The notes beneath the pieces are model-generated. The model was given only the letters and a program-made list of their open reading frames with translations. It ran no database searches and had not been told where the DNA came from. Shown here one piece after another: positions 2,607 to 17,906 of a stretch of DNA of 40,487 nucleotides. Origin of the DNA: Flavobacteriales bacterium (GTDB lineage: Bacteria > Bacteroidota > Bacteroidia > JACJYZ01); contig JAGQZQ010000023.1 in assembly GCA_020435415.1 (NCBI GenBank), forward strand, positions 1 to 40,487, read 5' to 3'. A program made the translations under genes and the position numbers. The first letter of the stretch is position 1. Every line of letters starts with the position of its first letter.

Positions 2607-5420
2607 ATGAAGATATCCAGAATTGTAGTTTTCTTACTTCTGACAACCCTCGTCAGTCGGGCACAAGATGCCATCCTCAGTGGAAATGTGAAAGATGGAG
2701 ATAATGGGCAACCCATTCCGGGAGCTTCCGTTATTGTAGCAGGTACCACTATCGGGACCGCTACCGATTTCGATGGCAACTTCAGATTACCCATACCCAA
2801 ATCCGGTAAAGTAAAGATCGTTTGCCAATACATTACGCACAACCCGGATACACAGGAGGTAACCCTCCAACCCGGAAAAACGATCAACCTTAATTTCTCG
2901 TTGCACGTGCAGGTATTTACCATTGCTGAAGGAATAACGATTGAAGCAAGGGTGAATCAGAAGTCTGAGAATGCTGCACGGACCGCGGAAAAAAAATCTG
3001 CCACTGTGGTAACGGTTATGGCCGCAGAACAGATTGCCAAAGGCGGCGACGGTGATGCTGCTTCCGCAGTGAAGCGTATGCCGGGTGCCACGGTAGAAGG
3101 AGGTAAATACGTTTACGTACGTGGCCTCAGTGACCGTTATAGTAAAACCACCCTTAACAGTGCGGAGATTCCAGGCCTGGATCCGAACAGGAACTCGGTC
3201 CAAATGGATCTCTTCCCCACCAACCTGATCGAAAAGATCAGTGCCGTGAAATCATTCTCACCCGATTTGCCCGGAAACTTTACCGGTGGTCTTGTGAATA
3301 TCGATACCAAAGAGTATCCGAATTCATTGATGATGCAACTCTCAACATCCCTGTCATACAACACCCAATCGAACCTCCGCAATGATTTCCTTTCTCCGGG
3401 AAAAGGGTCAAAAGATTGGCTGGGAATGGATGACGGTAGCCGTGATATCCCAGCTGCAGTTGACGGCAAGGTCATTCCAGGATACGGTGCCGATAATCAA
3501 AAGCTGGAGACACTTACCAAAGCTTTCAACAAAAATGTCTCGCCTCAACAGACCAATTCATTTCTGAACCAGGGTTATTCCTTCTCATTTGGAAATAGGG
3601 ATTCACTGTTTAAACGACCCTTGGGTTACATGGCAGGCGTAACGTACAGCCACAGTTTCACCGGATACGATAACGGCTTTACCGGAAGATACAACCAGAC
3701 CGGACCGGTATCGGAAGTGAATAACCTGAACCCCGACCTCATTTTCAAGGATTCAAAGATGGAAGAAGATGTTCTCTGGGGAGGCCTGATCAACGTATCC
3801 TATAATCTTGCAAAGAATCATGATATCAGTGCCACCGTTCTCCACAACCAGAACGGCACAAACATAGCCAGGTACCAGGAAGGTGAAATCCCAAAAGATG
3901 CTGTTGGTCTTTATCAGCAAACCCGTGCGATGGGATACAAGGAAAGATCTTTGGACACGAAACAATTGAAGGGTAAACATACCCTGCCATTCCTTCACGA
4001 TCTCGAAGTAAGCTGGCTGGCCTCATTGACCACTTCGGCTCAACGTGAACCAGATCTAAGGTTTATGACCAACGATTATGAACTGGTCAATTCCGGAAGC
4101 GAGAACCCAGACACCCTGTATGGCCTTAGCCCGTCTATATATGGTCCGCCCAGCCGATACTTCAGGGACATGAAAGAGACCAACAATGACTACAAGGTAA
4201 ACTTCCAGCTTCCTCTGGAAACCAAATCCGGACATCCGGCCATTATCAAATGGGGCGCTTCACAAGTTGTAAAAGACAGGACGTTCCGGGAACAACGCTA
4301 CGATTTCCGCAATACGAATATGGTCTATACCGGGAACATGACAGAATACTTCTCGGATGCCAACATGGATCTTTCATCAACATCTCACGTGTATGTGGTA
4401 GATGGCTACCAGGAAAGGAACCAATATGATGCGGATGAGACTGTCAGAGCTGCATATACCATGGCCGACATCTCATTGGAGAGATTGCGGATCATCACCG
4501 GTGTACGTTTCGAACATGACAAGATTTATGTGGCAAGCCACAAAGCATCACTCGAAAAAGGATTCCTGAACAACAAGGATTTTCTTCCTGCCATCAATAC
4601 CACTTATTACATTAAAAAGGACACGACCAACCTGAGGTTTGCCTACAGCCGCACCCTGGCTCGCCCCATCTTCCGAGAGCTGGCGCCGTTTGCATCGTTT
4701 AACTTCGTAGGTGACTATGTGGAAGTAGGCAACCCAAATCTGCAAAGGGCATTGATCGACAACGTGGACCTGAAATGGGAAACATATCCGAGAACAGGTG
4801 AGGTGATCAGCATCGGCGTATTCGGTAAGCGTTTTCAAAAACCAATCGAGCGCACTTTTAATATCACCGCCAACAATCCGGAGTTAACATACAGAAACGT
4901 GAAAGAAGGCCGGGCCTACGGTGCAGAGTTTGAATATCGCAGAAACCTGAGCGCTTTCCACCGGTCCCTGGAACACTTCAGTCTTGGCACCAATGTAACC
5001 CTCATTTATTCCCGCGTTGCAATTGATGCGAAAGAATTGGCCGATATCCGTGAACTGGATCCGGAACACCCAAGCAAGCGGGTGATGTTCGGCCAGTCGC
5101 CCTATGTTGTGAACGCATCACTCGGTTATCAAAATGACTCACTTGGGATGTCTGCCAACCTGAACTTCAACGTTTCAGGCGAGCGGATGGTAGTGGTGAT
5201 TGACGGTGGAGACCCGGATGTGTTTGAACAACCCACCCCTCAGCTTGACTTCAACATCAGAAAAGATATCGGTAAGAAGCTTGCCGTTTCATTGAACATG
5301 AAAAACATCCTCAACCCTGAATTCAGGCAGACCCAAACATTCAAGGGCAACGATTACGTTTTTCAATCCTACAAAAAAGGTATGAGTATCGGACTTAGCG
5401 TTCGCTACAATATTTTCTGA
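2607..5420 (+). CDS. TonB-dependent outer-membrane receptor
   Basis: A 937-residue outer-membrane transporter. A signal peptide (1-19, cleaved near SRA-QD) is followed by a carboxypeptidase-regulatory-like domain (about 22-105, 'SGNVKDGDNGQPIPGASVIVAG'), a plug (about 130-245, 'YVYVRGLSDRYSKTTLNSAEIPG' region, 'NLIEKISAVKSFSPDLPGNFTGG') and a 22-strand barrel ending in Phe. The plug of this subgroup is common in Bacteroidota. It imports a ligand using TonB-ExbBD energy; the substrate cannot be read from sequence. Its partner is probably the upstream beta-helix lipoprotein rather than a SusD protein. The preceding 11-bp-spaced TTAACA pair and the nearby polyphosphate, Na+/Pi and PhoBR genes make phosphate or a phosphorylated compound a reasonable candidate, not a demonstrated one. 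Confidence 0.93.
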   Translation: MKISRIVVFLLLTTLVSRAQDAILSGNVKDGDNGQPIPGASVIVAGTTIGTATDFDGNFRLPIPKSGKVKIVCQYITHNPDTQEVTLQPGKTINLNFSLHVQVFTIAEGITIEARVNQKSENAARTAEKKSATVVTVMAAEQIAKGGDGDAASAVKRMPGATVEGGKYVYVRGLSDRYSKTTLNSAEIPGLDPNRNSVQMDLFPTNLIEKISAVKSFSPDLPGNFTGGLVNIDTKEYPNSLMMQLSTSLSYNTQSNLRNDFLSPGKGSKDWLGMDDGSRDIPAAVDGKVIPGYGADNQKLETLTKAFNKNVSPQQTNSFLNQGYSFSFGNRDSLFKRPLGYMAGVTYSHSFTGYDNGFTGRYNQTGPVSEVNNLNPDLIFKDSKMEEDVLWGGLINVSYNLAKNHDISATVLHNQNGTNIARYQEGEIPKDAVGLYQQTRAMGYKERSLDTKQLKGKHTLPFLHDLEVSWLASLTTSAQREPDLRFMTNDYELVNSGSENPDTLYGLSPSIYGPPSRYFRDMKETNNDYKVNFQLPLETKSGHPAIIKWGASQVVKDRTFREQRYDFRNTNMVYTGNMTEYFSDANMDLSSTSHVYVVDGYQERNQYDADETVRAAYTMADISLERLRIITGVRFEHDKIYVASHKASLEKGFLNNKDFLPAINTTYYIKKDTTNLRFAYSRTLARPIFRELAPFASFNFVGDYVEVGNPNLQRALIDNVDLKWETYPRTGEVISIGVFGKRFQKPIERTFNITANNPELTYRNVKEGRAYGAEFEYRRNLSAFHRSLEHFSLGTNVTLIYSRVAIDAKELADIRELDPEHPSKRVMFGQSPYVVNASLGYQNDSLGMSANLNFNVSGERMVVVIDGGDPDVFEQPTPQLDFNIRKDIGKKLAVSLNMKNILNPEFRQTQTFKGNDYVFQSYKKGMSIGLSVRYNIF

Positions 5421-5775: not shown

Positions 5776-5887
5776 GATTTCAGAAAATTAATTGTGTCAT
5801 TGGTTACGACCCCAAAACACGGAATCAACATTAATCGCATCATTAATACAACGTTATGTTTGCGGACATTACAGAGACATGTTGATT

Positions 5888-5915
5888 TTAACATAATTGT
5901 AACACTGATTTAATG
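5888..5915 (+). promoter_or_regulatory. Putative Pho box upstream of the orphan PhoB-like regulator
   Basis: Three hexamers at an exact 11-bp period: TTAACA (5888-5893), GTAACA (5899-5904) and TTAATG (5910-5915). A TAnnTTTG-like box, TAATTTCG, lies at 5936-5943. This is the same geometry as in front of phoB (14337-14364), suggesting regulation by PhoB or autoregulation. Confidence 0.5.
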
Positions 5916-5962
5916 GAGTGATGCCCACTCCTGGCTAATTTCGTTAGCCAATCAGTACAACC

Positions 5963-6664
5963 ATGGAATTCAGATATAAAGTCCTGGTGATCGACGATCA
6001 GCACGATCACCGTGAACAAATGTTACATATCCTTGCCAGAGAAGGATTTGATACCGTAGGTGCGGTTTCCGGACATGAAGGTGTTGAAAAAGCACAAACA
6101 ACCCATTCTGATATTATTATTATGGATATCGCCATGTCCGAAATGGATGGGGTGGAAACCTGCATGCAAATCCGTGCCTTGCAGGATTCCAAGCACCCGA
6201 TCATTGTCTTCCTTTCCTCTCGCAACGAGGATTATTCTCAGATCGCTGCACTGGAAGCCGGTGGTGATGATTACGTCACCCGGCCAATTAAACCCCGCGT
6301 GTTTGTTTCACGCCTGAAAGCACTGATCCGCAGATCACAGCTATGGCAAAAAGTGTCAATAGAAAACGGCAATGGCCATGCACCTTCCACCATCCTGAAC
6401 AAAGAGCGGTATTCGGTTCTTCATAACGGCACGGAATACGAACTTCCCAGGAAGGAATTCGGACTATTATCCTTGCTCATGTCCAAACCAGGCAAGGTAT
6501 TTACCCGGGAATCTATTCTCAATGCTGTTTGGGATGAAGAAGATCTGATCAGTGATCGCACCATCGATGTACATATCCGACGCCTGCGAACCAAGCTAGG
6601 CAAAGAACGCATCAAAACGCTGAAGGGCATTGGATACAAGTACTGTCTTACCATCGCCGAATAA
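5963..6664 (+). CDS. OmpR/PhoB-family response regulator, orphan
   Basis: A 233-residue two-component regulator. Residues 5-125 form a receiver domain with the acidic pair DD (11-12), phospho-acceptor Asp55 ('IIIMDIAMSEMDG'), the conserved Ser/Thr region and Lys in 'RPIKPRV'. Residues about 138-230 form the winged-helix DNA-binding domain ('ELPRKEFGLLSLL', 'DRTIDVHIRRLRTKLG', 'IKTLKGIGYKY'). It is closely similar in layout and wording to the PhoB at 14470, so the two are paralogues. No histidine kinase adjoins it, so it is an orphan that may be served by the PhoR at 15176 or another kinase. Its position just before the polyphosphate operon and behind an 11-bp-period motif suggests a phosphate-related role (inference). 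Confidence 0.92.
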   Translation: MEFRYKVLVIDDQHDHREQMLHILAREGFDTVGAVSGHEGVEKAQTTHSDIIIMDIAMSEMDGVETCMQIRALQDSKHPIIVFLSSRNEDYSQIAALEAGGDDYVTRPIKPRVFVSRLKALIRRSQLWQKVSIENGNGHAPSTILNKERYSVLHNGTEYELPRKEFGLLSLLMSKPGKVFTRESILNAVWDEEDLISDRTIDVHIRRLRTKLGKERIKTLKGIGYKYCLTIAE

Positions 6665-6719
6665 ACGACCTCTTCCTGATCATCGCGCCGGATTTCTTAT
6701 ATTTCCGGAACATGGTCAA

Positions 6720-7142
6720 TTGTGTAACATACTGTTGAACACGGAAGCACTCATAAGGGAGTTACAGTTCCGAACCTCAAGAAGTAGCGGACCTGGTGGG
6801 CAACATGTAAACCGAACGGAATCGCGTGTGGAACTGCTCTGGCATCCTGCCGGTTCTGATGTTTTCAATGACCGTGAGAAAGTCCGGATACAAAAACACC
6901 TTGCCAACCGCATTGATGGAGAAGGGATTTTACATTTGACGGCATCCGAAGAGCGTTCTCAATTGCGTAACAAAGAACTCGTCATTCAGCGCTTCCTGAA
7001 ACTAATCGCAAGGGCACTGGTTCCGCAAAAGAAGCGCATCCCCACCAAACCAGGCAAGGCGACGGTGGAAAAAAGGTTGGCTCTCAAGAAGAAGCGATCT
7101 TTAAGAAAACAACAACGGTCGGGCCGGGGAGGTGATGAATAG
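6720..7142 (+). CDS. arfB: Peptidyl-tRNA hydrolase ArfB (release-factor-like)
   Basis: A small class I release-factor-like protein with the catalytic GGQ in 'SSGPGGQHVNRTESRVEL' and a Lys/Arg-rich tail that enters the empty mRNA channel ('KKRIPTKPGKATVEKRLALKKKRSLRKQQRSG'). It has the usual length (about 140 residues) and lacks the codon-recognition domain, so it should rescue ribosomes stalled on mRNA lacking a stop codon. The start is uncertain: no ATG is placed suitably. The only in-frame ATG (6630) lies inside the preceding gene, whereas TTG codons at 6720 and 6735 fit the family length. A promoter-like TATATTTC lies at 6698-6705. Confidence 0.88.
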   Translation: MCNILLNTEALIRELQFRTSRSSGPGGQHVNRTESRVELLWHPAGSDVFNDREKVRIQKHLANRIDGEGILHLTASEERSQLRNKELVIQRFLKLIARALVPQKKRIPTKPGKATVEKRLALKKKRSLRKQQRSGRGGDE

Positions 7143-7171
7143 CAACCGCTAAACCGACATAGATTATTCAC

Positions 7172-7179
7172 TACTTTTG
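7172..7179 (+). promoter_or_regulatory. -7 box of the sixA-ppk1-ppx operon
   Basis: TACTTTTG matches the Bacteroidota -7 consensus TAnnTTTG exactly and lies 58 bases before sixA. I see no convincing TTTG element 19-21 bp upstream and no 11-bp-period TTAACA repeat here, so the operon's own phosphate control is not supported at this site. Confidence 0.4.
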
Positions 7180-7236
7180 ATGTGATCAAGATATCCGTAA
7201 CATGATTTTCCCATCAGCCCATAAAAAGTCCACACC

Positions 7237-7719
7237 ATGCTAAAATTATATGCCGTGCGACATGCCAAATCAAGCTGGGCTTTTCAACAACTGCACGATA
7301 TTGACCGGCCTTTGAAAAGAAAAGGGATCAAAAGAGCGATCCAAATGGCCCGGATACTGAAGGAAAGAGGTGCCAAACCGGATGCTGTAATCAGCAGTCC
7401 GTCCATGCGAACCTGCCAGACGGCCCTTTTGTTCGGCACCGTGTTACGATATAACCCTGAAAAGATCACCCTCCTGAATACCCTTTATGAAGCGGGGCTG
7501 GAGGATGTAAAAAAAATGATCAGTAAGCTGGCCGATAGTGACAAAGAAGTGATGTTTTTCGGCCACCATCCATCTATCACGGATCTTGCAAATACTTACC
7601 TGGATGAACCACTTGCAGCTCTGCCGACCGGTTCCATCGCCCTTCTTACCAGTAAAGCGAACAAGTGGTCCCGGTTTATCTCACAACCGCTGGATATTGA
7701 ATTGATCATGCCTCATTGA
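7237..7719 (+). CDS. sixA: SixA-type phosphohistidine phosphatase
   Basis: A 160-residue histidine-phosphatase-superfamily protein. The N-terminal catalytic RHAK (R8, H9 in 'LYAVRHAKSSW') and the second His (H110, 'FFGHHPSITDLAN') are present, and the length fits SixA. Members remove phosphate from phosphohistidine or small phosphorylated molecules in the cytoplasm. It ends 11 bases before ppk1, so it is probably cotranscribed with ppk1 and ppx. That placement hints that its substrate relates to polyphosphate metabolism; since Ppk1 forms a phosphohistidine intermediate, an action on Ppk1 is conceivable but purely inferred. Confidence 0.85.
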   Translation: MLKLYAVRHAKSSWAFQQLHDIDRPLKRKGIKRAIQMARILKERGAKPDAVISSPSMRTCQTALLFGTVLRYNPEKITLLNTLYEAGLEDVKKMISKLADSDKEVMFFGHHPSITDLANTYLDEPLAALPTGSIALLTSKANKWSRFISQPLDIELIMPH

Positions 7720-7730
7720 ATCCACCAACT

Positions 7731-9806
7731 ATGTCAAGAAAGAATACGCGAGCGAAAGCCAAACCCAGTCCGCTGATCAACCGGGAGATCAGTTGGCTTT
7801 CCTTTAACGAAAGGGTGCTTCAGGAAGCGGAGGATGAGAAGGTTCCATTGGTGGAACGCATTCGTTTCCTGGGTATATTCTCCAACAACCTCGACGAGTT
7901 CTTTCGGGTTCGGGTGGCCACACTCAGGCGCCTGGTCACCCTCAGAAAAACAGACCGGGAAGAATTACTGGCCAAACCCAAGAAACTATTAAAGGACATC
8001 CAGGATATGGTGTTGAGTCAACAACAAAGATTCGACAGCATCTATCAGAATCTGATCAAGCAACTGAAAACACACAACATCCATCTCATCACAGAGACAG
8101 AACTTGATGAGTCACAAGGAAGTTTTGTAACAGACTATTTTAATACGCAGGTGCGACCGGCACTGATCCCGGTGATGCTCAAACAAAACCGGCCACTCCC
8201 CTACCTGAGGGATCGCACCATTTATCTGGCCATCCGGTTGCTTGATGCCAAAAAGCAGGAACAATTTGCCCTGATTGAGCTTCCTACTGGTGTCCTGCCA
8301 CGATTTACCGTCCTACCTGAATCCAAAGGACGCCGCTACATCATTCTTCTGGATGACGTGATCCGTTTCTGCCTGAATGAGATCTTCTCCATCTTTTCGT
8401 TCAAGTCGATCGACGCATACACCATTAAGCTTACAAGAGACGCAGAACTGGACCTCGATCATGACATCTCCAAAAGCTTCCTGGAGAAAATGACGCGTAG
8501 CATCAAACAACGAAAAAAAGGAGATCCGGTACGTTTTGTTTACGATCGGAACATTCCTCCTTCCATGCTGGAATACTTAAAAAAAAGGTTGAAACTATCC
8601 GAATCGGATAACCTGATCCCGGGAGGCAGATATCATAATTTCAAAGACTTCATGAAATTCCCGAACGTCGGAGGTTCAGAGCTTGAATATGAAACCCTGC
8701 GCCCTCTCAGACACCCGGCTCTTGTAAATGCACACAGCACGATGGATGTGATCAGAAAACATGATGTTCTGCTACATTTCCCCTACCAGTCATTCAATCA
8801 CATGATCGATCTGCTTCGCGAGGCAGCCATCGATCCTTTTGTGACCTCTATCAAAATCACCACATACAGACTGGCAAAAAACAGTCACGTCATCAATGCG
8901 CTGGTTAATGCCGCACGCAATGGCAAACAGGTCATGGTGGTGATGGAACTGCAAGCCCGCTTCGATGAGGAAGCCAACATCAGGTGGTCCAACAAACTGG
9001 AAGAGGATGGTGTGAAGGTGATCTTTGGCATGCAGGGATTGAAGGTTCATGCGAAGATCTGTCTGATCACCCGCAAAGAACACGGTAAGCTGAAACAATA
9101 CGCCACCATCGGAACCGGAAATTTCAACGAGGTAACGGCCCGCGTTTATACCGACAATACCTTGATGACAGCGGATAAACGCATTACCATGGAGGTAGCC
9201 AAAGTGTTCAATTTCCTGGAAAATAACTACCAGACCTTCACCGCAAAACATTTGATGGTATCACCATTTTCCACCCGTAAGAAGCTTGCTTCACTCATTC
9301 AAAAGGAGATCGTCCATTCCAGAAAGGGGGGCAAAGGATACATCTTCCTTAAGCTGAACAACCTGGTGGATGAGGAAATGATCAAGAAACTTTACCATGC
9401 CAGTCAGGCAGGCGTTAAGATACGGATCATCGTACGCGGTACATGTTCACTCATACCCGGGCTACCGGATATCAGTGAGAACATTGAGGTGATCAGCATC
9501 GTCGATAAATTTCTCGAACATACCCGTATCTATGTTTTCGGGGAAGGCAAACATCAGCAGATCTTCCTCTCTTCCGCGGATCTGATGAGCCGGAACCTGG
9601 ATTTCAGGGTGGAGGTAACGTGCCCGATCTATGACCCGAAGCTTCAGAAACAGCTCCTTGAAATGCTGGACATGCAATGGGCTGACAATATAAAATCCCG
9701 GTATATCGATGAAAAACAGGAAAATCATTACCGGAATAGCGAAGGTAAAAAAGCCATCCGCGCTCAGATTGATTATTATAACTATCTTCAAGGGTTGGGT
9801 AAATAA
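7731..9806 (+). CDS. ppk1: Polyphosphate kinase 1
   Basis: A 691-residue cytoplasmic enzyme that reversibly polymerises the gamma-phosphate of ATP into polyphosphate. The N-terminal domain ('NREISWLSFNERVLQEAEDEKVPLVERIRFLGIFSNNLDEFFRVRV' region, residues about 17-60), the head domain and the two phospholipase-D-like C-terminal domains are all complete. The autophosphorylated His is H440 ('GLKVHAKICLI') and the second essential His is H597 ('FLEHTRIYVFG'). A TTG codon at 7716 also opens the frame, but the ATG at 7731 gives the normal start. It sits between sixA (11 bases) and ppx (11 bases). The operon pairs synthesis with degradation of polyphosphate, a usual arrangement. Confidence 0.97.
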   Translation: MSRKNTRAKAKPSPLINREISWLSFNERVLQEAEDEKVPLVERIRFLGIFSNNLDEFFRVRVATLRRLVTLRKTDREELLAKPKKLLKDIQDMVLSQQQRFDSIYQNLIKQLKTHNIHLITETELDESQGSFVTDYFNTQVRPALIPVMLKQNRPLPYLRDRTIYLAIRLLDAKKQEQFALIELPTGVLPRFTVLPESKGRRYIILLDDVIRFCLNEIFSIFSFKSIDAYTIKLTRDAELDLDHDISKSFLEKMTRSIKQRKKGDPVRFVYDRNIPPSMLEYLKKRLKLSESDNLIPGGRYHNFKDFMKFPNVGGSELEYETLRPLRHPALVNAHSTMDVIRKHDVLLHFPYQSFNHMIDLLREAAIDPFVTSIKITTYRLAKNSHVINALVNAARNGKQVMVVMELQARFDEEANIRWSNKLEEDGVKVIFGMQGLKVHAKICLITRKEHGKLKQYATIGTGNFNEVTARVYTDNTLMTADKRITMEVAKVFNFLENNYQTFTAKHLMVSPFSTRKKLASLIQKEIVHSRKGGKGYIFLKLNNLVDEEMIKKLYHASQAGVKIRIIVRGTCSLIPGLPDISENIEVISIVDKFLEHTRIYVFGEGKHQQIFLSSADLMSRNLDFRVEVTCPIYDPKLQKQLLEMLDMQWADNIKSRYIDEKQENHYRNSEGKKAIRAQIDYYNYLQGLGK

Positions 9807-9817
9807 GATCGCGGAAA

Positions 9818-10720
9818 TTGAATATTCATCATATAGGTGCCGTTGACATCGGCTCGAACGCCATTAGATTGTTGATCTGTCAGGTGATTGAAGATGGAGA
9901 AACAACACATTTCAGAAAACAATCCCTGATAAGGGTTCCCCTGCGATTAGGTAAGGATGTGTTTCTCACCGGTGTTGTCTCTGAAAAAAATGTTGAACAC
10001 CTGGTGGATGCCTGTGTTGCTTTCGCACACTTACTCCGGGCTTACCAGGTCAGTAGCTACCGGGCCTGTGCCACCTCAGCCATGAGAGAAGCCACCAATG
10101 CACCTGCTATTCTGAAAAAGATACGCTCAGATTCCGGCCTGGAAGTGGAAGTGATCTCCGGAGAAGAAGAAGCATCCATCATTTACTCGACACATATTGA
10201 ACGGCTCCTTGATGCCGACCGGCCTTCACTTTACGTGGATATAGGAGGTGGAAGCACGGAGATTACCGTCTTTCAGGGAAGAGATGTTAAAGCATCAACA
10301 TCATTTAATATCGGCACGGTACGCATGCTGGAAGGCCAGGTTGACAAGGCGATGATGGGATATATCAAAACCTGGCTTCAGAAAAACTGCGCCGGCATGA
10401 AAGGGATCCAAACCATCGGTTCCGGAGGCACCATCAACAAATTATCCAAACTCGTTCCAAACAAAAAGAAGGATACTACCTTTTACAGCTACGGTCAACT
10501 TAAGAACGTATATGCATTTCTCAAAGCCCTGACATTTGAGGAACGAATCGTAAAAGCTGGACTTAATGCGGATCGCGCCGATGTCATCCTTCCGGCCGCA
10601 CAAATAATGCTGACCATTATGAAATGGGCGGGAAGCAAGTCCATCATGATCCCCAAATTCGGACTGGCGGACGGGATGGTAAGAAGTCTGTATGAAGCCC
10701 AGGTTCAGGCCGAAAAGTAA
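9818..10720 (+). CDS. ppx: Exopolyphosphatase / Ppx-GppA family phosphatase, short form
   Basis: A 300-residue ASKHA-fold phosphatase that trims terminal phosphate from polyphosphate (or hydrolyses pppGpp). The phosphate-binding signatures are present: 'GAVDIGSNAIRLL' (residues 8-20), 'ATSAMREATNA', catalytic Glu in 'VISGEEEASIIY', 'YVDIGGGSTEI' and 'IGSGGTINKL'. It consists only of the N-terminal catalytic two-lobe region and lacks the C-terminal HD-like domain of the ~500-residue E. coli enzymes. The start is a TTG, because no ATG precedes the conserved motif. It is the last gene of the sixA-ppk1-ppx operon and runs convergent to the next gene with only four bases between the stops. Confidence 0.93.
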   Translation: MNIHHIGAVDIGSNAIRLLICQVIEDGETTHFRKQSLIRVPLRLGKDVFLTGVVSEKNVEHLVDACVAFAHLLRAYQVSSYRACATSAMREATNAPAILKKIRSDSGLEVEVISGEEEASIIYSTHIERLLDADRPSLYVDIGGGSTEITVFQGRDVKASTSFNIGTVRMLEGQVDKAMMGYIKTWLQKNCAGMKGIQTIGSGGTINKLSKLVPNKKKDTTFYSYGQLKNVYAFLKALTFEERIVKAGLNADRADVILPAAQIMLTIMKWAGSKSIMIPKFGLADGMVRSLYEAQVQAEK

Positions 10721-12345: not shown

Positions 12346-14034
12346 TCACTTCATATCGATCAGTGCCTCGGTGATGTTAAAGATGTGATCCCCCATTTTC
12401 TCATAAGAAGAAAACAGTTCATTGTATATCATCCCGCTCCGGAAGTTGTATTCATTCTTTTCCAGATCCTCAAGGTGAAGAACCCTCAGTTGATCCCGCA
12501 ACTGATTGATCTCTATTTCCACTTCGTCAGCTTCCGTGATCTTCACCTGACCGAAAGGCCTGTCGAGGTTGGTGATCATCACATCAAAACCTTTACAGAT
12601 GAGCAGAAACATATCTTGAAGATTTTCACGCTGCGCCTGGGTAAACCAAACCCTTTCCTGGTGTTTCCGCGAGACCCATAATGACATCTGGTAGCATATA
12701 TCTCCGATCCTCTCAAGATCATTGATCACACCCAGCATTCCCCTCACCCGAAGTGAGCTTTCACGTGTAAGTTCTCCTTGTGAGATATTGCTCAGGTAGT
12801 CTGCAACCTCTACCTCGATACGGTCAGTGATGTTCTCATACTTCTCCACCCTCGAAAGCAACTCTCCGAATTTCTTATCATTGTTCTCTCGCAGGAGCGG
12901 CGGAACCATCTCAATCATTCGTTTGGTGAGCGTTCCGAACTTTACAATCTCCTTTTTGGCTTCCAGCAATGAAAGTTCGGGTGTGGTCATCAGGCCGGAG
13001 TCAATGTACTCCAGTTTGTACATTTCGTCCATATCACCGCGCGAAGGCACCATCCGAATGACCACCTTCACAAGCACAGGAACAAACCAAATGAGCAACA
13101 GCACGTTGGATACGTTAAAGGCTGTATGGAATATCGCCAGCGCCTGGGGAATGGCCTCGTCACTTGTAAACGGCGAACCCATGCCCATATCTATCATGAT
13201 GTCATTGATCTTCTGCAAGTAGAAACCATTCAGGAAAACCATCCAGGTTACACCGATAACGTTGAAAAGGCTGTGAATCCTGGCCGATCTTTTTGCGTGA
13301 ACATTACCTATGAAGGCTGCGATCTCCGCTGTGATGGTGGTACCAATATTTTCGCCAAGGATCATTGGTGCGGCAATCTCAAAAGGTATCCAGCCCTGAA
13401 AACACATGGTTTGGGTAAGCGTCATCGCCGCACTGGAAGATTGCACAATGATGGTGAGAAGGGTGCCGACACCCACGAATAGCAGGGTAGACAAAATTCC
13501 CATATCCGCATAGCTTGAAAGAAACTCGAGAACCTCGGGGCTGTTCTTGATATCCGGAACCGTATCTTTCAACGCTTCCAGCCCCATAAACAGTAATGCA
13601 AAACCGATCAGGAATTCACCCCAGAATCGCATATTCCCGCGCTTGCTGAAGATCATGGGAAATCCAACTGCAATAATAGGAAGGGCAAGTGTAACAATCT
13701 TTACCTTAAAACCAAGGGAGGCCACAATCCACCCGGTGATGGTGGTACCTACATTGGCCCCCATCATGATTCCGGCAGATTCTACCAAGGAAAGGAGGCC
13801 TGCATTCACAAAACTTACGGTCATCACCGTGGTGGCGGAAGACGATTGAACCAGGCTGGTAATCAGAAAACCGGTCAGTACACCCAGGAAACGATTCTTT
13901 GTCATGGAGCCAAGGATCATACGCATACGTGCACCCGCAGCATGCTGCAATCCTTCACTCATCACCTTCATACCGAAGATAAAGAAGCCGAGGGCTCCCA
14001 ACAACTCCATAAAATCCAGGAAATCAAATTTCAT
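12346..14034 (-). CDS. Na+/phosphate cotransporter with PhoU-like C-terminus
   Basis: A 562-residue inner-membrane transporter of the NptA/PNaS family importing inorganic phosphate with sodium. The two inverted repeats each carry the family's QSSS motif: Q63-S66 ('SLVQSSSATTV') and Q198-S201 ('IIVQSSSAAMT'), each followed by a 'GANVGTTIT' or 'GENIGTTIT' motif. Hydrophobic segments extend to about residue 330. Residues about 345-562 form a soluble helical PhoU-like domain ('FGTLTKRMIEMVPPLL', 'INDLERIGDICYQMSLW', 'YEKMGDHIFNITEALIDM'), which in this family probably senses or regulates transport. It is divergent from phoBR over a 435-bp region, so phosphate regulation is likely. Confidence 0.95.
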   Translation of the reverse strand: MKFDFLDFMELLGALGFFIFGMKVMSEGLQHAAGARMRMILGSMTKNRFLGVLTGFLITSLVQSSSATTVMTVSFVNAGLLSLVESAGIMMGANVGTTITGWIVASLGFKVKIVTLALPIIAVGFPMIFSKRGNMRFWGEFLIGFALLFMGLEALKDTVPDIKNSPEVLEFLSSYADMGILSTLLFVGVGTLLTIIVQSSSAAMTLTQTMCFQGWIPFEIAAPMILGENIGTTITAEIAAFIGNVHAKRSARIHSLFNVIGVTWMVFLNGFYLQKINDIMIDMGMGSPFTSDEAIPQALAIFHTAFNVSNVLLLIWFVPVLVKVVIRMVPSRGDMDEMYKLEYIDSGLMTTPELSLLEAKKEIVKFGTLTKRMIEMVPPLLRENNDKKFGELLSRVEKYENITDRIEVEVADYLSNISQGELTRESSLRVRGMLGVINDLERIGDICYQMSLWVSRKHQERVWFTQAQRENLQDMFLLICKGFDVMITNLDRPFGQVKITEADEVEIEINQLRDQLRVLHLEDLEKNEYNFRSGMIYNELFSSYEKMGDHIFNITEALIDMK

Positions 14035-14068: not shown

Positions 14069-14093
14069 TGTTAATGTTAATGTTGCGAAGATA
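14069..14093 (-). promoter_or_regulatory. Promoter-like box and tandem TTAACA hexamers before the Na+/Pi cotransporter
   Basis: On the minus strand TATCTTCG (14093-14086), similar to TAnnTTTG, is followed at once by GCAACA-TTAACA-TTAACA (14086-14069), a 6-bp tandem of the hexamer seen in the putative Pho boxes. The period is 6 rather than 11, and the position downstream of the box would suit repression or a different binding mode. Confidence 0.35.
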
Positions 14094-14336
14094 GGTCTTT
14101 TGTAATCCTTTCCATGACCGGATTACTTTTTGGGTTGATCATCCCAATCAAAAAACTTTTCCCCAACCCGCAGGATACACATTTAATTGACCGGCACTGG
14201 TCCGCTTCACCAAAGTGTATTCAGTGGACTTCTGACAGCAATCTGGCTATATTTTTTTGTTAACTAACGGGGTAAAACCCCAATGATCACGGAAACAAAG
14301 GTATCTGCCATTCACATTCGTCAATCATTTCTAATG

Positions 14337-14364
14337 TTAACTTTATTTTAACAATAAGTTAAGC
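14337..14364 (+). promoter_or_regulatory. Putative Pho box upstream of phoB
   Basis: TTAACT (14337-14342), TTAACA (14348-14353) and TTAAGC (14359-14364) form three direct repeats at an exact 11-bp period, the clearest example in the window. It lies 106 bases before phoB. A canonical -7 box is not obvious downstream; CTGGTTTG at 14384-14391 is the nearest candidate. Autoregulation of phoBR, known in other bacteria, is the natural reading. Confidence 0.6.
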
Positions 14365-14469
14365 ACTCGTCATTTTTAAATCGCTGGTTTGCAGGCGTCA
14401 GTGGGAATACAGACCTTTACTTGCCTCCCTTAACATCGATGACCGGAGGGAACTTCTAACGAATAGATA

Positions 14470-15153
14470 ATGGACGTTACAAAAAAGATTTTGCTCGTGG
14501 ATGATGAGGAGGATATCCTCGAATTTATCCGTTATAACCTGGAAAAGGAAGGGTTTGATGTGAATGTGGCGCATAACGGACGAGAAGCCATCAACGTAGC
14601 CAAACAAATAAAACCGGACCTGGTGATCCTGGATATCATGATGCCGGAAATGGATGGCATTGAGACGTGCCAGGAAATCCGCTCCATACCGGAAATGGAA
14701 CACGTGGTCATCGCCTTTCTCACCGCAAGAAATGAGGACTACATTCATGTGGCCGGTTTGGATTCCGGAGGAGATGACTACATTACCAAACCTATTAAAC
14801 CGCGTGTACTTGTAAGTCGGGTGAAAGCGTTGCTCAGGAGAAGCCCTGCCAGGGGTGGTGATGACAGCGGCGTCATTCAATCCGGACCACTGACAATCGA
14901 TCAGGATAAGCACCTTGTGCAATGCAACGGTGATACGCTGGAACTCCCCCGTAAGGAGTTCGAACTTCTGGTGCTTCTCGCTTCAGCACCCGGAAAGGTT
15001 TTCAGAAGGGAAGAAATCCTGGATCGTGTCTGGGGTCAGGATGTGATCGTTGGCGACCGGACCATCGACGTACACATTCGAAAACTTCGCGAAAAACTGG
15101 GTGATGATTTTTTCCGCACCATTAAGGGCGTAGGTTATAAGTTTGAGTTCTGA
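14470..15153 (+). CDS. phoB: PhoB-type phosphate response regulator
   Basis: A 227-residue OmpR-family regulator. The receiver domain (residues 5-122) has the acidic residues D11-D12, phospho-acceptor Asp55 ('LVILDIMMPEMDG'), Thr in 'FLTARNEDY' and Lys in 'ITKPIKPRV'. The winged-helix domain (about 133-226) has 'ELPRKEFELLVLLASAPGKVF' and 'DRTIDVHIRKLREKLG'. It is followed after 22 bases by its cognate kinase gene and is divergent from a Na+/Pi cotransporter, which together support PhoB rather than another OmpR-type regulator. It should bind the 11-bp-period TTAACA repeats found at several promoters here (inference). Confidence 0.93.
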   Translation: MDVTKKILLVDDEEDILEFIRYNLEKEGFDVNVAHNGREAINVAKQIKPDLVILDIMMPEMDGIETCQEIRSIPEMEHVVIAFLTARNEDYIHVAGLDSGGDDYITKPIKPRVLVSRVKALLRRSPARGGDDSGVIQSGPLTIDQDKHLVQCNGDTLELPRKEFELLVLLASAPGKVFRREEILDRVWGQDVIVGDRTIDVHIRKLREKLGDDFFRTIKGVGYKFEF

Positions 15154-15175: not shown

Positions 15176-16267
15176 ATGAAGAACTTAACGCCACATCAGA
15201 TATCTATCAGGGCATCCCTCGTGATTGCCGTGGCGTATACCCTTTTGTCCTGGGTAAGCCTGTCCAACCCAACCAAACTGGTCATTGTTTTTCATTTCGG
15301 ATTGGTGTTTGTGATATCCTTTTTGGTGATGCGCTATACCATCGGTCATTTCATCTACAGGAAGATCAAGCTCATTTACAAAACCATCCAAAAGGAAAAA
15401 TCCAAAAAGCTTGAAAAGAAAGAGGAGACCTCATCCATTATTCATGAGGATCTCATGGCCCGGGTTAATATGGATGTGCAGGCCTGGGCAGACAGCCAGC
15501 GGCAGGAGATCGACCGGCTGGTGGCGGATGAACAATACCGGAAGGAATTTCTGGGAAATGTGTCGCACGAACTGAAGACGCCGATCTTCAACATCCAGGG
15601 GTATATCCTGACATTGCTGGAAGGTGGACTGGAAGATGAATCGATCAACCGGGACTACCTCCAAAGAGCCGACAAAAGCGTGGATCGGCTGATCCATATT
15701 GTAGAAGATCTTGAAACAATCAGCCAGCTGGAGGCCGGTCATCTGGAACTGGACATGGACAAGTTTGATGTGGTTGCGCTTACAAGAGACATCCTGAAGT
15801 CGCAGGAACTGGTGGCAAGGGACTCCAGCATTACACTTGGATTCAAGGATCACGATGAAAAGCCCCGGGAAGCGATGGCAGATAAAGAGCGGATTCGTCA
15901 GGTCATCACCAACCTGATCGTAAACAGTATCCGTTACGGGAAGAAGGGAGGCCAGACCGAAGTACGGTTTTATGATATGGACGAGAACTGGCTGGTGGAA
16001 ATTTCCGATGACGGCATCGGCATCCCCAAGAAACACCTGCCCCGTATCTTCGAACGCTTTTTCAGGGTTGACAAGAGCCGATCCCGCGAACGCGGCGGTA
16101 CAGGACTAGGCCTTTCCATTGTCAAGCACATCATTGAAGCGCACGGACAAACCATCAATGTGAGGAGTACGGAAGGAGTGGGATCCACATTCTCCTTCAC
16201 CCTTGAAAAAGCAAAGGAGCGCCCGTCTAATCAGCGTTTCCGAAAAACAAGCACTTCGCCTTCCTGA
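15176..16267 (+). CDS. phoR: PhoR-type sensor histidine kinase
   Basis: A 363-residue membrane kinase. Two hydrophobic segments (about 12-30 and 34-52) are separated by only a few residues, so there is almost no periplasmic sensing domain, as in PhoR proteins that sense through the phosphate transporter/PhoU. A charged helical linker follows (60-120), then the HisKA domain with phospho-accepting H131 ('GNVSHELKTPIFNI') and a HATPase_c domain with N box ('QVITNLIVNSIRYG'), G1 ('ISDDGIGIP') and G2 ('RGGTGLGLSIVKHI'). It is cotranscribed with phoB. Its last 37 bases overlap the 3' end of the opposing lipoprotein gene. Confidence 0.93.
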   Translation: MKNLTPHQISIRASLVIAVAYTLLSWVSLSNPTKLVIVFHFGLVFVISFLVMRYTIGHFIYRKIKLIYKTIQKEKSKKLEKKEETSSIIHEDLMARVNMDVQAWADSQRQEIDRLVADEQYRKEFLGNVSHELKTPIFNIQGYILTLLEGGLEDESINRDYLQRADKSVDRLIHIVEDLETISQLEAGHLELDMDKFDVVALTRDILKSQELVARDSSITLGFKDHDEKPREAMADKERIRQVITNLIVNSIRYGKKGGQTEVRFYDMDENWLVEISDDGIGIPKKHLPRIFERFFRVDKSRSRERGGTGLGLSIVKHIIEAHGQTINVRSTEGVGSTFSFTLEKAKERPSNQRFRKTSTSPS

Positions 16268-16782: not shown

Positions 16783-17856
16783 TTATAAACCTTTGTGCCG
16801 GATCAACTCTTCTATCGCCTTTTGCAATCCTTCGGGCCGCATGGGCTTAAGCGGCTTTAGCTTGCGATAGGCAACCAGCGCATTCCCCAGACCCAGGTCG
16901 GATTGATGTACTTCTATCCCGGAACCGGAACCTGCCGCATATTCTGCCAGGTATTCCTGCTCTGTTTGTCCGGGAGTCGGAATGAGAATGGCTGTCCGAC
17001 CCAATATTCTGAGGTCCATAAGGGTTGAATATCCCGAACGGCAGATGATCACACCCGCCCCCATGATCTGATCTCTAAATGGCTCATCAGCAAGGTGGTC
17101 AAACCAAGTGATAGATTCGGATGAAGCGGGAGCGGTCCCTGTTCTACCCCTGATGATGGTCACTTTCATATTGAGGTCAGGCAGACGGGAGACCAGTTCC
17201 TCCTCCAACTGACTTCGCTGCGGTTCGGGCCCTGAAAGAATGACCAGACATTTGTTGGGGTCAGCGGTCGGTGTGGTCTCAGGAAGGGTAAAACGCGATA
17301 GCAAACCAACATATCGCACATGTGACGGCAGCGGCTGGCCGTGGGACAAGCGCCCCGACAGGTTTTCTTCACCGGCCGCGTCCGGCACCCAGCAATAGGT
17401 AAACCTGCGAATCCAATGCTGCTGCATCTGATAGATCAGTCCTTCGAAAGCCGGCGCCTGCACATGTAACTGGTGACTGATAAATACCGAAGGTATGCGT
17501 TGAGACCATAATCCGTAACGATTATCAGATATCACGGCATCCAGGCGGTGCATATCCACGTAATCATTTAACACGCGATGTTCTTCACGAATGGTCCGCC
17601 ATAAACGGGGAGATTGCTTCAGCATGGCAGCTGCCATGAAATTTCCATTCTCCGGATAGCGAACGTCATATGAGGGAAGTTCCAATCCATGCAGCTGTGG
17701 AAAAACTTCCTGAAGCAATGAAAGGGAGGAAGAAGCTCCGCCGATGAATACCTCACGGCCGGCTTCAATCAATTTACGGATCACAGGAATGCATCGCGTG
17801 GCGTGACCCAGACCCCAATCCAGCGGAGCCACCAATATTCTTTGATTCCCTTTCAT
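16783..17856 (-). CDS. MurG-like (GT28 family) glycosyltransferase
   Basis: A 357-residue GT-B fold glycosyltransferase. The N-terminal acceptor half begins 'RILVAPLDWGLGHATRCIPVIRKL', the glycine-rich membrane-sugar motif of MurG-like and related enzymes. The C-terminal half carries the donor-binding region ('CRSGYSTLMDLRILGRTAILIPTPGQTEQEYLA', residues about 277-309), including the serine/threonine and GQTEQ motif that contacts a UDP-sugar. No transmembrane segment is seen, so it is cytoplasmic or peripheral. Acceptor and sugar are unknown. It is divergent from trmB; a perfect -7 box TAACTTTG lies in the shared upstream region. Confidence 0.8.
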   Translation of the reverse strand: MKGNQRILVAPLDWGLGHATRCIPVIRKLIEAGREVFIGGASSSLSLLQEVFPQLHGLELPSYDVRYPENGNFMAAAMLKQSPRLWRTIREEHRVLNDYVDMHRLDAVISDNRYGLWSQRIPSVFISHQLHVQAPAFEGLIYQMQQHWIRRFTYCWVPDAAGEENLSGRLSHGQPLPSHVRYVGLLSRFTLPETTPTADPNKCLVILSGPEPQRSQLEEELVSRLPDLNMKVTIIRGRTGTAPASSESITWFDHLADEPFRDQIMGAGVIICRSGYSTLMDLRILGRTAILIPTPGQTEQEYLAEYAAGSGSGIEVHQSDLGLGNALVAYRKLKPLKPMRPEGLQKAIEELIRHKGL

Positions 17857-17866
17857 GACGTAAACC

Positions 17867-17874
17867 CAAAGTTA
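17867..17874 (-). promoter_or_regulatory. -7 box of the glycosyltransferase gene
   Basis: Minus-strand TAACTTTG matches TAnnTTTG exactly and lies 11 bases upstream of the ATG at 17856, giving a very short leader. A TTTG -33 element is not evident. Confidence 0.45.
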
Positions 17875-17906
17875 AAACCTTTCGCGACTTGTGTAAAGTA
17901 AGCACA

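Follow-up and report, generated by a model that had tools for sequence, protein, structure and literature searches.

A predicted PHO box of the class Bacteroidia: TTAACA-like repeats at an 11-bp period between phoB and a Na+/Pi cotransporter gene

What is the function of three TTAACA-like hexamers that stand between a phosphate regulator gene and a divergent phosphate transporter gene in a Flavobacteriales bacterium? The hexamers are located at positions 14337–14364 (+ strand) of the window, by which is meant the whole stretch of DNA analyzed (40,487 nucleotides of contig JAGQZQ010000023.1, assembly GCA_020435415.1). An earlier note, made from the letters of the window, placed them before phoB at exact 11-bp spacing, and this description holds letter by letter: TTAACT, TTAACA and TTAAGC are separated by TTATT and ATAAG (TTAACT-N5-TTAACA-N5-TTAAGC), with 11 bp between hexamer starts. 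The flanking start codons are those of phoB at 14470 (+) and of the Na/Pi cotransporter gene at 14034 (-). The perfect triple occurs a single time in the 3.48-Mb genome, and the pattern TTAAC-N6-TTAAC-N6-TTAA with at most two mismatches is found five times in the window, compared with a mean of 0.31 in 100 dinucleotide shuffles, none of which reaches five. On the strength of the sequence comparisons described below, these repeats are very probably the PHO box of Bacteroidota of the class Bacteroidia, at which PhoB is predicted to act as a tandem activator that replaces the -33 element.

The gene at 14470–15153 (+) encodes an OmpR-family response regulator whose best NCBIfam model is PhoB. The score of this model (TIGR02154, 220.9 bits) lies below its curated cut-off of 296.2, as does that of NF053854 (213.4 against 270); no other model ranks above these two for the product, however, and it is therefore called PhoB-like. 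Orthologues with up to 68% identity are present in 132 of 149 genomes, and the recognition-helix residues are nearly invariant in a set of 102 orthologues. The following gene (15176–16267, +) encodes a PhoR-like histidine kinase with HisKA and HATPase_c domains, for which the best models, PnpS/PhoR, likewise score below cut-off. The divergent gene (12346–14034, -) encodes a Na+/Pi cotransporter that carries a PhoU domain. The search of the window's own genome yielded no PstC, whereas the search of the class (149 genomes) found pstC in 54; consequently, phosphate uptake may rely on the cotransporter, perhaps as the main importer.

Promoters of phoB were taken from class relatives and Flavobacterium (n = 102). 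Unseeded Gibbs sampling with random starts, applied to the phoB promoters of 93 other genomes with the window's own genome left out, settled in the majority of runs on the direct repeat nTTAAnnTTnnnTTAACATnnn, with its 11-bp period. When pairs of TTAACA-like hexamers (at most one mismatch) were counted, the 102 promoters contained 101 pairs at exactly 11 bp (in 60 promoters) and 48 at 22 bp, compared with a mean of 11 at other spacings, and only 11 bp and its multiples were strongly over-represented. Removal of Flavobacterium left 75 pairs at 11 bp against a mean of 7. The coding sequence of the same phoB genes contained no 11-bp hexamer pair, and 40 paralogous OmpR-family promoters of equal base composition contained three. 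Two-fold cross-validation against the paralogue promoters gave AUC values of 0.87 and 0.92, with held-out Flavobacterium at 8/10 and 10/10, while about 18% of phoB promoters have no site of at least 10 bits. The resulting consensus consists of two or three direct repeats with an 11-bp period, TTAA(C/T)nTTnnn-TTAACAT, and this repeat structure is of a kind known for PHO boxes (PMC4415409).

The position of the box relative to the core promoter was examined using the Bacteroidota -7 box, which has the consensus TAnnTTTG (PMC9723704, PMC7366714). In boxes facing phoB (n = 49), the distance from the start of the -7 box to the start of the PHO box is 38/39 bp in 28 cases, 27 bp in 6 and 49/50 bp in 8; 41 of the 49 promoters carry a -7 box on this 27/38/49 (+1) grid, compared with at most five at 38/39 bp in shuffles. 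These distances place the downstream half-site at the -33 position, or one 11-bp turn to either side, so that the box holds a fixed position relative to the core promoter in the place of its upstream element. For sites in the reversed orientation the grid is found in 6 of 22 only. Boxes that read away from phoB sit farther upstream, at about -70 to -140, and at least some of them belong to a divergently transcribed pst gene (L233 and L378 denote a single site).

The box at 14337 belongs to the class that reads away from phoB. The triple reads exactly on the plus strand; its best-scoring register, however, is on the minus strand (14331–14352, GTTAAAATAAAGTTAACATTAG) and faces the Na/Pi cotransporter gene, with 16.4 bits from 14352 to 14331 against 10.9 bits on the plus strand. 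The repeats are near-symmetrical, as TTAA is self-complementary. In the direction of the cotransporter, a perfect -7 box, TACCTTTG (14296–14303, -), lies on the grid, 49 bp away from where the minus-strand box starts, and transcription from it would give a leader of about 250 nt. In the direction of phoB, the -7-like element CTGGTTTG (14384–14391, +) is weak, with two mismatches, and stands at 48 bp from the first repeat and at 37 bp from the second. The triple probably serves both genes, combining autoregulation of phoB with Pi uptake. As a separate observation, TTAACATTAACAT (about 14070–14090, minus strand, some 40 bp before the cotransporter start) contains two TTAACA words that are just 6 bp apart.

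The earlier note had pointed to three other regions of the same window and proposed a four-site motif. The regions are real and the proposal is supported, as the matrix learned without the window's own genome puts exactly these four regions on top: 2528 (19.4 bits), 14331 minus (16.4), 853 (15.9), 14342 minus, 5887 (11.3) and 14336 plus. Three regions of the window, which was outside the training set, reach at least 15.8 bits, compared with 0.02 expected per window at the null rate. The top site of the window, GTTAACATTTACTTAACACTCA (2528–2549, +), is a perfect TTAACA-N5-TTAACA and precedes a TonB-dependent receptor gene (2607–5420, +; Plug, CarbopepD_reg_2 and OMP_b-brl_3 domains). Its -7 element is weak, as is the one directed toward phoB. 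The box before ORF 925 (842–874, +) comprises the matrix site at 853–874 and an earlier repeat, CATAACACCTA, from 842, followed by a -7-like box, TTCCTTTG (880–887, +), at 27 bp from box 853 and 38 bp from 842. ORF 925 itself (925–2424, +) encodes a 499-residue lipoprotein with 34% identity over 291 residues to the lipoprotein of a Flavobacterium Pho island. Consequently, the lipoprotein, TonB receptor, phoBR and GT28 set of the window corresponds to that island. The third box, with three repeats (5887–5919, +; pair at 5887–5908 with the third repeat after it), precedes a second PhoB-like regulator gene and has a -7-like box, TAATTTCG (5936–5943, +), at 49 bp from its start. Three sites of the window thus fit the -7 grid, with TACCTTTG, TTCCTTTG and TAATTTCG, respectively. 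A weak box-like site at the start of the GT28-type glycosyltransferase gene (17855–17876, -; 9.6 bits) was doubtful, with misfitting geometry, and was dropped because it runs into the start codon and lacks a -7 box.

The second PhoB-like regulator (5963–6664, +) is 48% identical to PhoB, and it also falls short of the curated PhoB cut-offs. It is followed, to position 10720, by genes for an RF-1-domain protein, a histidine phosphatase, ppk and ppx (Ppx/GppA). The genes from 5963 to 10720 probably form one unit behind the PHO box, which makes a direct link between phosphate starvation and polyphosphate metabolism possible. The box might belong to this second regulator, or to both proteins, such that the paralogues share or compete for one operator. 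The nearly identical recognition helices (DRTIDVHIRRLRTKLG and DRTIDVHIRKLREKLG) speak for such an arrangement, as does the fact that the second gene, like its relatives, has the box in front of it. Most sampled genomes, however, have one strong PhoB orthologue with the box in front of its gene, and the second copy occurs in only a minority of genomes, indicating that the box is independent of it. Ownership by the second regulator, alone or shared with PhoB, is accordingly regarded as unlikely, although it is the most serious of the alternatives considered here.

If the repeats are the operator of PhoB, they should also mark phosphate genes elsewhere in the class, and the earlier note had suggested a search for the motif before such genes. 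With the matrix learned without the window's own genome, 17 of 20 held-out promoters of second PhoB-like genes in other genomes score at least 10 bits, including those of the window's type (L350, L351). At 17 of 30 pstC loci an upstream site of at least 12 bits was found, all intergenic, compared with 1.3 expected in shuffles; some of these sites (L378, part of L380) coincide physically with phoB-promoter sites of the training set, and the rest are independent. The remaining 13 loci have no site in the stretch scanned, and some stretches end short of the operon start. Matches occur in 3 of 40 paralogous OmpR-family promoters, and sites of at least 15 bits number 0 in the gldL and paralogue loci (256 kb) versus 18 in the pst loci (112 kb). 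By recovering pst and second PhoB-like genes while avoiding paralogues and gldL, the matrix supports the PhoB/PhoP-type reading that the note had offered. The same distribution bears on whether the repeats belong to a different OmpR/PhoB-family regulator of ArcA-like (11-bp TTAA repeats), CtrA-like (TTAA-N7-TTAAC) or RprY type. The TTAA words and their period recur in the sites of CtrA and ArcA. The PhoP motif of Riemerella anatipestifer has been reported as ArcA-like (PMC9603813). Against this, sites cluster upstream of phoB, of second phoB-like genes and of pst genes, with few in front of paralogous OmpR-family genes, and the other OmpR paralogues of the window's genome have differing recognition helices. 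The profile scores of the adjacent regulator do not identify it as a CtrA or ArcA orthologue either, as the ArcA model scores far below the PhoB models and CtrA is absent from its 25 top-scoring models. A different regulator of the family is therefore improbable.

In Flavobacterium, boxes of the phoB island lie between phoB and the TonB receptor gene and before the gene of a phosphate-selective porin, and some genomes have further boxes before the lipoprotein and GT28 glycosyltransferase genes. As a side observation, one or two box-like sites of 13 bits lie inside the phoB coding sequence of the Flavobacterium genomes examined, possibly reflecting mere codon conservation. PhoX as an independent Flavobacterium target gave a match in one genome only. 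The comparison with Flavobacterium johnsoniae was made by matching the island genes, as the GldL sequence search gave close relatives only. In this organism the matching genes rise under phosphate depletion, with log2 values of 8.0 for the receptor, 9.9 and 7.6 for lipoproteins, 5.4 for the glycosyltransferase and 3.1 for phoB, while the counterpart of the island porin does not rise (PMC8115612). The domains of the window's TonB receptor are the same as those of Fjoh_0545, which is Pi-induced (PMC8115612). These data are relevant to whether the repeats instead repress, for instance by keeping polymerase from the -33 region. Overlap of the box with the -33 position would be compatible with repression, and pstS is up in a Riemerella phoPR mutant (PMC5399024); however, the counterparts of most boxed genes rise when phosphate is depleted, and the placement fits an E. 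coli-like activator. We consider it improbable that the repeats act as a repressor site.

The bare consensus is not enriched in the window's own genome over the reversed pattern (26 versus 37, 177 versus 218, and 46 versus 48), and the perfect TTAACA-N5-TTAACA is not enriched in three Flavobacterium genomes. The hexamers alone therefore do not define the regulon. Equal frequency before unrelated genes had been named as the outcome that would refute the motif; this is what the bare hexamer pair shows, but it does not hold for the full matrix with -7 spacing. Matches to the matrix stand before phoB and known phosphate genes and are rare elsewhere, and specificity requires the full matrix together with the -7 geometry. 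Origin of the words by chance in AT-rich intergenic DNA, to which the control-rate loose consensus might point, is hardly credible, as a foreign-trained matrix ranks the four window regions first and only spacings of 11 bp and its multiples stand out.

In its own genome the matrix was scanned over the window and limited candidate stretches. Among the candidate loci examined, the combination of box, -7 grid and nearby start leaves ORF 925, the second regulator and the beta-propeller gene at C103:4924. The last site (L297) is a 16.7-bit box with the -7-like TACCTTAG before a gene (1584–2726, +) for a 380-residue protein with beta-propeller-type matches; in F. johnsoniae, the lipoprotein Fjoh_3414, which has InterPro domains of the beta-propeller type, is strongly Pi-induced. 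At C1:147245 (L002/L306), a TTAA triple with one mismatch and just 8.2 bits is found some 145 bp upstream of the gene for a purple acid phosphatase; at a distance of 1.4 kb, a CitMHS/TrkA_C transporter gene has a 14-bit site in front of it. Some high-scoring sites precede genes without a phosphate link: the 17.1-bit box at C75:8313 (L296) stands before a DUF34/NIF3 gene and a divergent lpxK with no obvious link to phosphate, and is either a chance site or an unexpected target.

The following mechanism is proposed for PhoB at its predicted box. When phosphate becomes limiting, dimers of phosphorylated PhoB would line up on the repeats in head-to-tail order along a single face of the helix. The half-site farther downstream would then occupy the place of the -33 element, about 20 bp before TAnnTTTG, or be displaced from it by one 11-bp turn in either direction, a placement from which PhoB is proposed to be an activator that replaces the -33 contacts. 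Tandem-bound PhoB would most likely recruit polymerase in lieu of the -33 element. At 14337–14364 this would couple phoB autoregulation to Na/Pi uptake in a genome where no Pst system was detected. A broader proposal, slightly less likely than not, is a class-wide PhoB design in which the box replaces the -33 element from three positions, each an 11-bp turn apart, at TAnnTTTG promoters, and two PhoB paralogues with the same helix share the operator, coupling phosphate uptake to polyphosphate metabolism.

Known systems offer both parallels and distinctions. The PHO box of Bacillus subtilis PhoP has the consensus TT(A/C/T)ACA-N5 in repeats. The CtrA box of Alphaproteobacteria, TTAA-N7-TTAAC, has the words and spacing of the Bacteroidia box but another regulator and other targets, as the Bacteroidia box marks phosphate genes. 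In E. coli the PHO box replaces the upstream promoter element, an architecture documented in part in PMC4415409. The Bacteroidia box shares with the B. subtilis box the 11-bp direct repeats (PMC4415409) and nearly the same core word. It differs in its second half-site, TTAACAT, with a conserved T about seven positions into each unit, and in facing a TAnnTTTG -7 box rather than a sigma-A -10 element. Like the E. coli PhoB box (CTGTCAT repeats), which is bound in tandem (PMC4415409), it has two 11-bp units, for which tandem binding is predicted; the core word is unrelated, and the primary sigma factor and -7 element are different. Within the phylum, DAP-seq of Riemerella PhoP gave the motif TTTAACA, with the same core word, and EMSA proved an autoregulatory site upstream of phoPR (PMC9603813). 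The accessible text of that report gives 583 peaks and mentions neither a repeat with an 11-bp period nor a promoter geometry nor a Pho regulon, and its authors compare the motif to ArcA (PMC9603813). For Bacteroides fragilis, binding of PhoB to a 512-bp fragment of the pst promoter is documented, with no box defined in it (PMC3547664). The earlier remark that a Pho box is poorly defined in Bacteroidota agrees with the open literature, in which no published definition for Bacteroidota or Flavobacterium was found (subscription papers were outside the search).

Low-phosphate genes are known in several Bacteroidota; the matrix describes the DNA site predicted for their PhoB. Together with the promoter spacing, this matrix would allow prediction of the Pho regulon in Bacteroidota of soil, sea and gut, and it names the exact bases to mutate. 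The predicted box may also provide a simple case of an activator working with the phylum's unusual primary sigma factor, for which the -33 element is either weak or has escaped detection.
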